A model generated the notes under the pieces. That model was not told the DNA's origin. It saw only the letters and a list, made by a program, of their open reading frames with translations, and did no database searches. From Guptibacillus hwajinpoensis (GTDB taxonomy: Bacteria > Bacillota > Bacilli > Bacillales > Guptibacillaceae): DNA of 64,000 bases. Shown here piece after piece: positions 42,503 to 51,957 of the stretch (the stretch's first letter is position 1; every line of letters begins with the position of its first letter). The translations under genes were made by a program, and so were the position numbers. The DNA lies in NCBI RefSeq assembly GCF_020171785.1, contig NZ_JAIVAE010000006.1, positions 248,001-312,000 on the forward strand, read 5' to 3'.

Positions 42503-42531
42503 TTGAAAGAAGTATGGCCCTCCCTTATAAT
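42503..42531 (+). promoter_or_regulatory. Promoter of the MutS2-like leader transcript
   Basis: TTGAAA (42503-42508), 17-base spacer, TATAAT (42526-42531). Transcription should begin near 42538, giving a leader of about 350 nt before the MutS2-like gene. Confidence 0.82.
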
Positions 42532-42565
42532 AAATGTAACCTGAAAAGAAAAAGGGGAAAAGTTT

Positions 42566-42589
42566 ATGTTATCGGTGATTCTTAACTAA
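42566..42589 (+). CDS. Seven-residue leader peptide MLSVILN
   Basis: ATG 42566 is 8 bases behind a strong AAAGGGG. The frame reads MLSVILN and stops at TAA 42587-42589. Codons 4-8 (GTG ATT CTT AAC TAA) are the 5' arm of a long helix with 42663-42676. This is the layout of leader peptides in ribosome-mediated attenuators such as those of antibiotic-resistance genes. Assignment is by architecture; translation is not shown. Confidence 0.72.
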   Translation: MLSVILN

Positions 42590-42678
42590 CGTAATTTTAT
42601 AGACAGTTTGGTTTTTAAAGACGCATATATACTATGCTTATTTAATTATGCCTTCTGTCAAATTAGTTAAGAACACAG
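42575..42678 (+). promoter_or_regulatory. Anti-antiterminator helix and antiterminator 5' strand
   Basis: Bases 42575-42589 (GTG-A-TTCTTAACTAA) pair with 42663-42676 (TTAGTTAAGAACAC), 14 bp with one bulged A. The second strand overlaps the antiterminator strand GAACACAG (42671-42678), so both helices cannot form at once. GACAG (42602-42606) and CTGTC (42655-42659) extend the stem. Confidence 0.75.
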
Positions 42679-42702
42679 ATTTAAGCTCATGAATGATGAC
42701 GA

Positions 42703-42761
42703 CCATTCCAGCTGCGCCTCTGTGCGCGGCTTTTTATATGCTTTTTTAAGCATGGGAATGG
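42703..42761 (+). other. Nested three-way RNA structure with internal terminator-like hairpin
   Basis: CCATTCC (42703-42709) and GGAATGG (42755-42761) enclose two hairpins: GCTGCGC/GCGCGGC followed by TTTTTAT (42711-42737, terminator-like) and ATGCTT/AAGCAT (42738-42753). This may be a structured element of the leader or a first terminator. Confidence 0.55.
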
Positions 42762-42780
42762 GGAAGTCTACCCTTTTATA

Positions 42781-42823
42781 AAAGAGCTACGAGTGAACCT
42801 GTGTTCATTTGTAGCTCTTTTTT
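42781..42823 (+). terminator. Conditional terminator before the MutS2-like gene
   Basis: AAAGAGCTAC (42781-42790) pairs perfectly with GTAGCTCTTT (42811-42820); GAAC/GTTC closes the inner stem; T6 follows. CTGTGTTC at 42799-42806 and GAGCT at 42784-42788 are also complementary to the upstream GAACACAG and AGCTC (42671-42688), so an antiterminator can dissolve this hairpin. Confidence 0.88.
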
Positions 42824-42840
42824 ACGTTAGGAGCGTGTGT

Positions 42841-42882
42841 ATGTTAATTGAACGAACGCATTATAGGAGCACAAACGACTGA
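42841..42882 (+). CDS. Thirteen-residue upstream ORF MLIERTHYRSTND
   Basis: ATG 42841 follows AGGAG by 7 bases. The frame ends with TGA 42880-42882, whose last bases are the start of the GAGGAGG ribosome site of the MutS2-like gene, 13 bases before its TTG. This suggests translational coupling. The ATTGAACGAAC stretch inside it is repeated at the main start. Confidence 0.6.
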   Translation: MLIERTHYRSTND

Positions 42883-42895
42883 GGAGGAAGAAAAA

Positions 42896-44815
42896 TTGAA
42901 CGAACAAACGATGGCAACACTTGAATTTGATAAAATCCGTAGCGAGATCGCCCACTATGCGCTTTCCGAAGAAGCGAAAGGTGAGATCCAGAAAATGAAA
43001 CCCTCACATGATACAAAAGTGGTTCAAAACAGATTAAATGAGACTACCGAGGCAAAAGCGATTATAAAGAAGAGCTCTAGTGTTCCTCTTCATGGCCTTC
43101 ATGGCATCATTCAAGTGATAAAGCAATTAAACAAAGGACTTGCATTACGACCTGATCAGCTTACAACCGTACTGGATTTGATTGAAAGTGGTCGAAGAAT
43201 GAAACAGTTCATGGTGGGAAAAGAGTGGTTAGCTCCCACGATTTCAAGCTATGTGTATTCTCTTTTTGAACTTACAGATCTTGAAGAAGAGTTAAAACAA
43301 TCGATTCGAAATGGGGAAATCGACGATACTGCGAGTAAAGAGTTAGGAAGAATAAGAAAAAAAATAACTGTATATGAAGAAAGGGTGAAGGAGAAACTTA
43401 ACCAGCTTCTGCGTTCATCATCAAAACGAAAAGCTCTCCAGGATACCATTATTAGTGATCGTAACGGACATTATGTTGTAGCAGTTAAAAAGGAATATCG
43501 TAAACAAATCAAAGGAACGGTTCACGATCAATCATCAAGTGGTTCAACGGTTTATATTGAACCTGAGGAAGTTCGAAAAGTTCAAGTAGATTTAAATGAA
43601 TTAAAAGCGGATGAATACCTGGAGGAACAGCGCATTCTGAGCAAATTAACAGGAGAAGTGGAGCAATATGCACAGGAGATCTCCATTAACATTGAAACGA
43701 TGACGCACTATGATTATATTTTTGCCAAAGCAAAATATAGTGTAGCGATTGATGGAAGTCAAGTTCAGCTATCATCCGAACCAATGATCGAACTACGCAA
43801 CGGTCGCCATCCATTGTTAGCTAAAGAAGCTGTTCCCTTAACCCTTGAACTAGGGAAGGGATATAAAGGATTAGTGATTACTGGCCCAAATACAGGAGGG
43901 AAAACCGTTGCCATTAAAACAGTCGGTCTTCTTGCGATGATGGTGCAATGTGGCTTACACATTCCGGCTGAAGAGTCTTCTGTGTTTGGAATGTTTGGCA
44001 ACATACTCGTTGATATTGGCGATGGACAGAGTATTGAACAATCGTTAAGTACTTTCTCTTCACGAATTTCGAATATCATTACCATTTTGCAAGATGCTGG
44101 ACCTGATGCTCTTGTCATTCTAGATGAGCTTGGTTCAGGAACAGATCCTGGTGAAGGGATGGGAATTGCCGTATCGATTTTAGAACAATTAAATCGCCTC
44201 GGCGCAACCATTCTTTCCACAACGCATTATAGCGAGATGAAGAATTTTGCATCTGCCCATCCTGATTTCGAGAACGGGTCGATGGAGTTTGATCCACAAT
44301 CACTGCGGCCGACGTTTAAGTTGCGAATGGGCATACCCGGTGAAAGTCAGGCATTTGCAATTGCCCTCAGGCTTGGCATGCATCCGAAGATTATTGAGCG
44401 TGCTCATGAAATTACGTATCAGGAGAAGGAAACTTACAATAAGCGAGAGCAGCGTGATTGGCACTATGAACAACAGTTGAAAAGTAAAAAGGTCGATCAA
44501 CCGCGACGGCAAAAAGTACAGGTTGAAAAGCACTTTGAACAGTTTTCCATTGGAGACAGCGTGGCGATACCTTCTATGGAGGAAAAAGGAATTGTTTACA
44601 AACCGATTGATGAGTTTGGGAACGTGATGGTCATGATTAATGGCAAAAAAGAGACGATTCATGCGAAGCGATTAAAACTCCTTTTGCCAGCAAGCGAACT
44701 TTACCCTGAGAATTATGATTTTGATATCCTGTTTGAATCGGTTGAGAACAGAAAGAAAAAGAAATTGATGAATCGAAAGCATGTGGATGGCTTGAAAATT
44801 GATTATGAAGAGTAG
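42896..44815 (+). CDS. MutS2-like ATPase lacking the Smr nuclease domain
   Basis: 639-residue MutS2 paralog. Core/clamp region (~1-300) has LQDTIISDRNGHYVVAVKKEYRKQIKGTVHDQSSSGSTVYIEPEEV; the ATPase has Walker A GPNTGGKT near residue 330 and Walker B ALVILDELGSGTDPGEG near 405. A KOW-like segment follows (FSIGDSVAIPSMEEKGIVYK), then a short tail. The ~75-residue Smr nuclease domain of canonical MutS2 (~785 aa) is absent. TTG 42896 is chosen for GAGGAGG 8 bases upstream; TTG 42848 has no good site. B. subtilis MutS2 acts on collided ribosomes, so this form may split ribosomes without cutting mRNA (inference). Confidence 0.9.
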   Translation: MNEQTMATLEFDKIRSEIAHYALSEEAKGEIQKMKPSHDTKVVQNRLNETTEAKAIIKKSSSVPLHGLHGIIQVIKQLNKGLALRPDQLTTVLDLIESGRRMKQFMVGKEWLAPTISSYVYSLFELTDLEEELKQSIRNGEIDDTASKELGRIRKKITVYEERVKEKLNQLLRSSSKRKALQDTIISDRNGHYVVAVKKEYRKQIKGTVHDQSSSGSTVYIEPEEVRKVQVDLNELKADEYLEEQRILSKLTGEVEQYAQEISINIETMTHYDYIFAKAKYSVAIDGSQVQLSSEPMIELRNGRHPLLAKEAVPLTLELGKGYKGLVITGPNTGGKTVAIKTVGLLAMMVQCGLHIPAEESSVFGMFGNILVDIGDGQSIEQSLSTFSSRISNIITILQDAGPDALVILDELGSGTDPGEGMGIAVSILEQLNRLGATILSTTHYSEMKNFASAHPDFENGSMEFDPQSLRPTFKLRMGIPGESQAFAIALRLGMHPKIIERAHEITYQEKETYNKREQRDWHYEQQLKSKKVDQPRRQKVQVEKHFEQFSIGDSVAIPSMEEKGIVYKPIDEFGNVMVMINGKKETIHAKRLKLLLPASELYPENYDFDILFESVENRKKKKLMNRKHVDGLKIDYEE

Positions 44816-50823: not shown

Positions 50824-50862
50824 AAAAGAGCCCTGCTGAAAATTTCAGCTGGGCTCTTTCTT
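50824..50862. terminator. Terminator between alanine symporter and sortase genes
   Basis: AAAGAGCCC...GGGCTCTTT with inner CTGAAAATTTCAG; lies between convergent genes. Confidence 0.85.
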
Positions 50863-51835
50863 ATTCGTCTGAAGTGATTTTTTTAGAAGGCGCCGATTCA
50901 TTTCCAAAGATATTAACTGCCGTAACATAGTAGGAAGAGCTTGAGGCATCTGGATCTGTAAAGCTCTTTCGTTCAAGATTTGATACACTCTCAATTTGTT
51001 TGTATACTCCGTACGCATCGGCTTTATAAATCCGATAACCGACCACATTTTCATCACGAACAGCGTGCCACGAAAGAAAGTTGCCGCTAACACTAAGGTT
51101 TGTTGGTGCATCAGGTACTTCGTCAGGATTTACTTGTTCCTTTTTATCAGAATCGTCTTCTTTTAATTCGGTAGACACAACAAGTCTTTCTTCATGTGTC
51201 CCTTTCGACCGATTAAATGTGCCAACACATGTAATGAGATTCAATGTACGTGAATCAGTTGGTCCAAAAATCTTCTCAATTGGAGAATCATCATACGGGT
51301 ATCTTTCTTTACCGGTTACAACGAAGGTCATTGTTGCACCATCTTGACCAGTTAAAATAATTTCGTCTCCTTTTGAAAGTTTTTCGAGATAAAAAAAGAT
51401 CGCTGGTCCCGTTTTACTATCGACGTGCCCAGCAAGGACAGCATTTCCTTTTGTACCTGGCTTAAAGCCGGGCTCAAACCAGCCAACTTTGTTAATATCC
51501 TCTGGTACACCCATTTGTCCATTATCTAGAACGCCTACATTCTCGATAGCGGCTTTCACATCAATGGCGGGTATTGCAAGTTGCACTGGTTCAATTCCTT
51601 CTTGAACGTCCTGAGATTCTTTTGCTTTCTCAATTTTTTTCTTCTGATTATCTAGAAGTAAAAATTCATCCGATAAGACATCCGGTTTTTCAATTTCTTC
51701 TACTTCTAACTCAGATTGGTTTTCTTCGGTTATGTTTGTTACGGCTTCTTGCGCCGGCTCAGTATAATTATTGTTATAACCAGCAAGAACGAGCCAGATA
51801 ATTGCGCCAACGACAAGCAACAAGATCTTCCTCAC
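50861..51835 (-). CDS. Class F-like sortase with C-terminal FN3-like domain
   Basis: 324-residue exported protein: N-terminal anchor (~3-20), acidic linker, sortase domain (~85-225) and a fibronectin type III-like domain (~238-320: PDAPTNLSVSGNFLSWHAVRDENVVGYRIYKA). Catalytic residues are visible: His in AGHVDS, Cys in NLITCVG and Arg in ERLVV. The compact sortase core resembles class F. GTG 51833-51835 is 8 bases behind AGAGG; a GTG three codons upstream overlaps that site. No LPxTG substrate lies in the window, so the enzyme may act on distant proteins. Confidence 0.83.
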   Translation of the reverse strand: MRKILLLVVGAIIWLVLAGYNNNYTEPAQEAVTNITEENQSELEVEEIEKPDVLSDEFLLLDNQKKKIEKAKESQDVQEGIEPVQLAIPAIDVKAAIENVGVLDNGQMGVPEDINKVGWFEPGFKPGTKGNAVLAGHVDSKTGPAIFFYLEKLSKGDEIILTGQDGATMTFVVTGKERYPYDDSPIEKIFGPTDSRTLNLITCVGTFNRSKGTHEERLVVSTELKEDDSDKKEQVNPDEVPDAPTNLSVSGNFLSWHAVRDENVVGYRIYKADAYGVYKQIESVSNLERKSFTDPDASSSSYYVTAVNIFGNESAPSKKITSDE

Positions 51836-51957
51836 ATTCTTCACCTCTTTTAGTTAATTTCTATCATATAAACATTTACTGACAATAGTCTTACAAAGCT
51901 AACGAAAAAAACGTCACTTTAGATCATTTTTTAAGAAAAAAATTAATCTGAAAAAGA

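Follow-up and report, generated by a model that had tools for sequence, protein, structure and literature searches.

A leader and a mutS2-like gene in Guptibacillus hwajinpoensis

The window, that is, the whole stretch of 64,000 nucleotides of Guptibacillus hwajinpoensis DNA that was analysed (contig NZ_JAIVAE010000006.1), carries on its forward strand a gene coding for a 639-residue paralog of MutS2, preceded by a leader with the layout of a transcription attenuator. All leader features described here lie on that strand. The mutS2-like gene (42896-44815, most likely starting at the TTG at 42896) encodes a MutS core, an ATPase and a putative KOW-like barrel, and no Smr domain. Its leader combines a short open reading frame (ORF) with a ribosome-binding site, mutually exclusive helices supported by comparison and an intrinsic terminator, which are features expected of a ribosome-mediated attenuator.

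The promoter (TTGAAA-N17-TATAAT, 42503-42531) starts 9 bp past the stop codon of an SDR gene, shows 11 of the 12 consensus bases and gives the region's best sigma-A-like match. It is followed by a GGGG ribosome-binding site (42554-42557), 8 nucleotides ahead of the start of an upstream ORF (uORF, 42566-42589) of 7 codons, MLSVILN-stop (ATG TTA TCG GTG ATT CTT AAC TAA). Codons 4 to 7 and the stop form the left arm (42575-42589) of an anti-antiterminator helix, P1a, which folds with a right arm at 42663-42676, leaving one bulged A. Promoter, leader ORF with its ribosome site and P1a had all been proposed in an initial annotation, made from the sequence alone, and were found where it had placed them.

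An AATTTnATA block, invariant in its alignment columns (A1), directly follows the uORF stop (42590-42602). In most relatives this block is the loop of a hairpin, P2, whose stem is weak in the window, and it is conserved across leaders, including that of tet(M), beyond what pairing requires. Folding and a permutation test supported an inner helix, P1b, between GACAG (42602-42606) and CTGTC (42655-42659). It encloses a putative RNA polymerase pause hairpin (GCATA...TATGC, 42623-42637), whose position matches SL-2 of vmlR (PMC9226507), and TTATTT (42638-42643), an instance of the NusG-type pause motif TTNTTT. The antiterminator strand (GAACACAG...AGCTC, 42671-42688, with GAACACAG at 42671-42678) shares 42671-42676 with the right arm of P1a and can pair with the terminator downstream.

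Two terminator-like hairpins separate this strand from the gene. The upstream one, T1 (42710-42736, hairpin 42710-42731), has T5 and lies ahead of the putatively regulated intrinsic terminator, T2 (42781-42823). The position and T6 of T2 stood as initially annotated, while its stem measured 17-19 bp and not 10 bp. The elements named at the outset were thus retained, and the list had missed T1, the TTATTT pause hairpin (42623-42643) and P1b. No Rfam family matched the window leader in a search of that database.

Folding of the leader RNA

The leader RNA (42538-42830) folded at -95.9 kcal/mol, against -61.2 kcal/mol (standard deviation 4.8) for shuffled sequences (z -7.2), and none of 200 shuffles was as stable. 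Folding had been suggested at the outset as a check on the proposed attenuator, and this result speaks for it. When the growing transcript was folded without a ribosome mask, the antiterminator had zero pairs at every length. Masking of 42552-42600, to mimic a ribosome on the uORF, gave exactly 17 antiterminator pairs at transcript ends 42806-42812. An antiterminator of about 17 bp that excludes P1a, as first claimed, was therefore recovered, and only when the uORF was covered.

Conservation of the leader with the gene

The paralog was searched for in 397 genomes from 135 genera of the host's order, and leaders were examined at 133 loci. About one third of the genomes (137) and 44 genera carried it. 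Smr-less MutS2 genes with short leader ORFs, a search for which had been suggested in the initial annotation, do occur elsewhere. The leader ORF had exactly 7 codons at 132 of the 133 loci, the single exception being a diverged ORF (L032), and it ended in V/I-L/F-N/D-stop at 128, a recurrence well above what chance would give. A strict pattern (a 7-codon ORF whose stop is preceded by GTT/ATT-CTT-AAC/AAT/GAC, plus the right arm GTTAAGAAC or a variant) was present at 126 loci and missed two conforming ones, L018 (MLSVVFN) and L131 (TAG stop). Four further loci formed a diverged clade with other 7-codon ORFs (MSAVGSK, MSIAGVN, MSGVVSK and MSAIGSN) and other arms. A Shine-Dalgarno-like sequence preceded the uORF start by 7-11 nucleotides in 124 of 125 leaders.

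Each of the 125 leaders had one or more strong terminators before the gene, and 88 of them displayed at least two terminator-like hairpins. Between uORF and right arm, 110 of the 125 have TTNTTT, compared with a mean of 28 and a maximum of 41 in shuffles. Many families of Bacilli share the 7-codon ORF together with its mutually exclusive helices and terminator; loss of the leader ORF or of the alternating helices in relatives, the outcome named beforehand as fatal to the proposal, did not occur.

The columns of P1a are near-invariant, with one compensatory pair and G-U changes in those of the left arm. Compensated arm changes were seen at L129 (CTTAATTAA with AATTAAGAAC) and in the broken copy L207 (TTTAACTAA with GTTAAAAAC). 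Because RNAalifold recovered only P1a from the full alignment, in which hairpin lengths vary, P1b and the antiterminator were assessed by permuting strands among 48 dereplicated leaders, uncorrected for phylogeny. P1b paired at -13.3 kcal/mol with its own strands and at a mean of -5.5 kcal/mol with permuted ones, the antiterminator at -6.67 against -5.25 kcal/mol, and in neither case was any of 1000 permutations as good. The covariation looked for since the initial annotation is thus present in these two alternative pairings, beside a nearly invariant P1a.

Some loci depart from the common arrangement. Clade 2 (L132-L135, L173-L176 and L292) has Smr-less MutS2 proteins behind MSAVGSK-type uORFs with the arms GGTTCTAAATAGG / CCTATGAAGATACC; several of its loci hold a further left-arm-like copy, GTAGGTATCTTCAT, just ahead of the gene start, so translation may also be controlled there. 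At L010, L166, L168 and L207, frameshifted or truncated mutS2-like genes lie behind intact leaders.

A MutS2 lineage without Smr

The window protein matched TIGR01069 at 632 bits (cutoff 400), over model positions 1-520 of 790 only. The Smr domain (PF01713) was detected in none of 48 diverse paralogs, as first annotated for the window protein; the canonical MutS2 encoded in the same genome carries both Smr and MSSS. A canonical MutS2 was kept in 45 of 46 sampled genomes, so the paralog is an addition and not a replacement. In a tree, paralogs and canonical MutS2 proteins were parted by one branch with 100/100 support. The database name of the paralog is only 'endonuclease MutS2', although it lacks Smr.

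An AlphaFold model of the paralog (mean pLDDT 83) matched the B. subtilis MutS2 of the collided-disome complex and Thermotoga MutS2 (structure matches 7qv3 and 9kce). It predicts a small barrel at residues 555-597, which probably descends from the KOW domain. The region of Smr is replaced by a conserved tail, ELYPxDYDxDI...NRKxRKxMxRKHVEG, shared with proteins that are presumably Paenibacillus- and Brevibacillus-like. The exact Walker A string was intact in 128 of 128 full-length clade-1 proteins and missing from all four clade-2 proteins.

The same element before other genes

Of 397 genomes in the order, 138 gave a match to R1, a covariance model built from the leaders, as did 67 of 330 in the class. 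Nearly all matches precede either a mutS2-like gene, as most of them do, or a resistance-type gene. The genes other than mutS2 include Tet(M) (L288, L289, L291 and L297; 1507 bits, cutoff 1420; uORF MRQGILK), an ABC-F ribosomal-protection-like protein (L213 and L214; 464 bits, cutoff 380; uORF MMPSYC), an LmrB-like MFS transporter (L286), an APH-like kinase (L281), GNAT proteins (L167, 3648-4445, uORF MKVVVLN; L211, slightly broken ORF) with a second GNAT at L266, S-adenosylmethionine (SAM) methyltransferases (L209 and L212; uORF MKVVVLN, stop TAA or TGA) and an alpha/beta hydrolase (L210, degenerate uORF). In genome G187, the GNAT gene of L167 is found 3.6 kb downstream from the mutS2-like gene, behind a separate copy of the attenuator.

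The second commonest cargo is a BpsA-like gene, resembling branched-polyamine synthases. Proteins with BpsA_C (PF01861, E 1.3e-41) follow the element at 11 loci in two families outside the order (L264, L267-L270, L272, L274, L275, L277, L283 and L294), with MSVCVLN, MSVFVLN and similar uORFs; this type of cargo has no obvious antibiotic link. Pattern matches in genomes G032, G095 and G225 were rejected as chance, as were two on viral contigs, which fell in phage coding sequence.

R1 scored the tet(M) leaders at 38.7 to 41.2 bits (E about 1e-5 per genome, on a rough calibration). These leaders contain the uORF MRQGILK with a Shine-Dalgarno sequence, a P1 helix, the AATTTGATA block after the stop and a terminator, and their antiterminator strand (the right arm) pairs with the terminator at -14.5 kcal/mol, a value reached by 6 of 500 shuffles. 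At L299 (plasmid NZ_CP026492.1) the 7-codon uORF is unannotated and lies at 434-457 within the anti-antiterminator helix; what is annotated as the tet(M) leader peptide (L299 549-665) is a different ORF, downstream of the uORF and overlapping the terminator. The only Rfam entry for this leader, RF02864 'Enterococcus sRNA 30', overlaps it at L288 2904-3068 and is probably the attenuated tet(M) leader transcript. As judged from sequence, the window leader is recognisably related to that of tet(M).

Cytobacillus and Paenibacillus plasmids also carry the mutS2-like gene with its leader, and in a clostridial relative the copy is preceded by a 7-codon ORF, MSVIVLL, with changed arms. Two distant paralog types occur in the tree within Guptibacillus, the window's own genus. 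These plasmid copies, the clostridial relative and the two types in one genus indicate horizontal movement. The leader has the marks of a recurrent, mobile, antibiotic-type transcription attenuator.

Proposed mechanism and alternative explanations

In an unstressed cell, the ribosome would translate the 7-codon ORF quickly and depart. RNA polymerase would pause at the TTATTT hairpin while P1 forms between the ORF end and 42663-42676, locking away the antiterminator strand, and T2 would then stop transcription. When an antibiotic or another stress slows translation, a ribosome lingering on the uORF would cover the left arm, and the freed strand (42671-42688) could pair with the terminator's 5' arm and loop during their synthesis, letting the gene be transcribed. 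The product would be an inducible ATPase of the MutS2 lineage, with Smr lost and another tail gained, acting on stalled ribosomes. The presence of this element ahead of tet(M), ABC-F, efflux, acetyltransferase and other resistance-type genes makes 'antibiotic-inducible' its natural reading, and the findings suggest that many soil bacteria turn on the paralog when an antibiotic slows their ribosomes. We infer induction by slow or arrested ribosomes on the uORF, and the drugs that would cause it, from this setting, and action of the paralog in ribosome rescue from its homology to MutS2, which splits stalled ribosomes and requires its ATPase to do so (PMC10897456).

Taken together, a tet(M)-related ribosome-mediated attenuator likely controls a factor of MutS2 lineage that is most likely inducible and acts on stalled ribosomes, in the manner of HflXr (probability about 0.8). 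Several observations weigh against this account. Even with the uORF masked, T2 was favoured again once its 3' arm was complete (42823); since it beats the antiterminator at equilibrium, the switch must be kinetic. T1 was not dissolved by the antiterminator in growing-transcript folding and should terminate ahead of T2, which the switch model leaves unexplained; a pairing of T1 with the strand after the right arm looked promising by eye and was non-significant after dereplication (131 of 1000 permutations). P1a varies too little to yield much covariation signal, the permutation tests ignore kinship among leaders, and the E-values and calibration of R1 are rough. In the protein, KOW/SH3 is barely recognisable (profile probability 9%) and MSSS was detected in 1 of 48 paralogs, so uS10 binding of the MutS2 kind is not assured.

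We consider evenly balanced the broader view that the leaders form one widespread mobile attenuator family of Bacillota, serving as a general sensor of slow translation and standing most often before an Smr-less MutS2. Such a family would be defined by a fixed 7-codon uORF, a stop codon within a helix arm and the AAUUUnAUA block just after it. Its less frequent positions would be ahead of tet(M), ABC-F, efflux and modifying-enzyme genes and of a BpsA-like gene.

The strongest competitor, which we regard as possible and still rather doubtful, is ribosome arrest by the nascent peptide M-x-x-V-V-L-N that requires a bound drug of one class, in the manner of the erm and msrD leaders, so that the paralog serves that class. 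Val occupies codon 4 in 100 of 126 leaders and is written with all four Val codons, although the third base lies outside the conserved helix; each of the 126 has Val or Ile at codon 5, Leu stands at codon 6, and the clostridial relative keeps VIVL although its arm has changed to CTTTTATAG. However, GTTCTTAACTAA is fixed down to synonymous bases, so that pairing alone could fix V-L-N, positions 2-4 of the uORF vary, and L6F and N7D/S/K/L occur. The tet(M) peptide MRQGILK, the ABC-F peptide MMPSYC and the clade 2 peptide MSAVGSK have a length of about 7 as their sole common feature, and the cargo covers several drug classes. A fixed ORF length with a variable peptide and multi-class cargo thus favours a general sensor of slow translation over a drug-specific arrest peptide.

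It is unlikely that the attenuator is real while the paralog acts on DNA, in a recombination- or mismatch-like process, with only an indirect induction by translation stress. The MutS-family core and ATPase would suit such a role, and DNA roles have been proposed for some MutS2 proteins (see also PMC3200294). Three observations speak against it: related leaders govern factors or enzymes directed at ribosome-targeting drugs, the MutS2 of B. subtilis works on ribosomes (PMC10897456), and Smr, the domain linked with nuclease activity, is absent from the paralog.

Sensing of a small molecule such as a polyamine by the uORF, as in the speFL or odc1 leaders, appears very improbable. The 11 loci with BpsA_C behind the element point that way, but the tet(M), ABC-F, LmrB-like and APH-like cargo shows no connection to polyamines, tet(M) responds to translation inhibitors, tetracycline among them (PMC9632896), and, as a speculation, ribosomes might be protected by the branched polyamines themselves. 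An ordinary terminator of the upstream SDR gene combined with chance pairings, for which only the closeness of the promoter to the SDR stop speaks, can be dismissed, because the same leader, with its own promoter and conserved ORF, recurs in many genomes beside other neighbours, including on plasmids.

If the leaders form one such general-sensor family, Smr-less MutS2 would represent a new and common class of inducible resistance factors that split drug-stalled ribosomes. The sensing ORF of tet(M) would be the unannotated 7-codon ORF and not the annotated leader peptide, a fresh hypothesis on how tet(M) senses tetracycline. The shared element may also serve as a search tool for unrecognised genes of resistance to ribosome-targeting drugs.

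Elsewhere in the window, the reverse strand (50861-51844) codes for a sortase-like protein with an extra C-terminal FN3-like region, as judged by eye.

Comparison with known systems

Ribosome-mediated attenuators of resistance genes are already known from tet(M), vmlR, msrD and hflXr. No published description of this leader or of the Smr-less MutS2 paralog was found in a search that was thin on subscription journals. Regulation of tet(M) and Tn916 by attenuation is relieved by tetracycline or other translation inhibitors (PMC9632896); for the tet(M) leader of Tn916-type elements, PMC9632896 and PMC5418344 cite Su et al. 1992. The window leader resembles it in the 7-codon uORF with Shine-Dalgarno sequence, P1, the post-stop block, terminator and antiterminator, and differs from it in the uORF peptide and arm bases and in the product, which for tet(M) is a ribosomal protection GTPase.

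The vmlR leader of B. subtilis (PMC9226507) likewise has its uORF inside the anti-antiterminator, a TTATTT pause hairpin, a terminator and an alternative antiterminator, with the TTNTTT NusG pause motif at the corresponding place. Its trigger is ribosome arrest, the same as proposed for the window leader. However, the vmlR uORF has 3 codons (MIN), initiation is arrested by lincomycin or retapamulin and the gene controlled is an ABC-F gene; the likeness described here is one of layout.

The paralog shares with B. subtilis MutS2 (PMC10897456; PDB 7qv3 and 8qpp) the core, the clamp and the ATPase fold, with Walker motifs intact in clade 1. It differs in having no Smr, a KOW domain that appears degenerate and an extra C-terminal tail, in forming a separate lineage and in its predicted leader-controlled expression.

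In Listeria, hflXr lies behind rli80 (PMC6310831), an arrangement in which a paralog of a ribosome-splitting factor follows an antibiotic-responsive short-uORF attenuator, and the uORFC-6-1 motif before hflX in Bacillales (PMC8632094) belongs to the same class. The factor there is an HflX GTPase, whereas here it is a MutS2 ATPase, and the Listeria uORF has 14 codons with an RLR motif. By analogy of logic, HflXr appears to be the closest counterpart, and the link to a tet(M)-type attenuator predicts that the paralog is an inducible intrinsic resistance or rescue factor, the MutS2 counterpart of HflXr.

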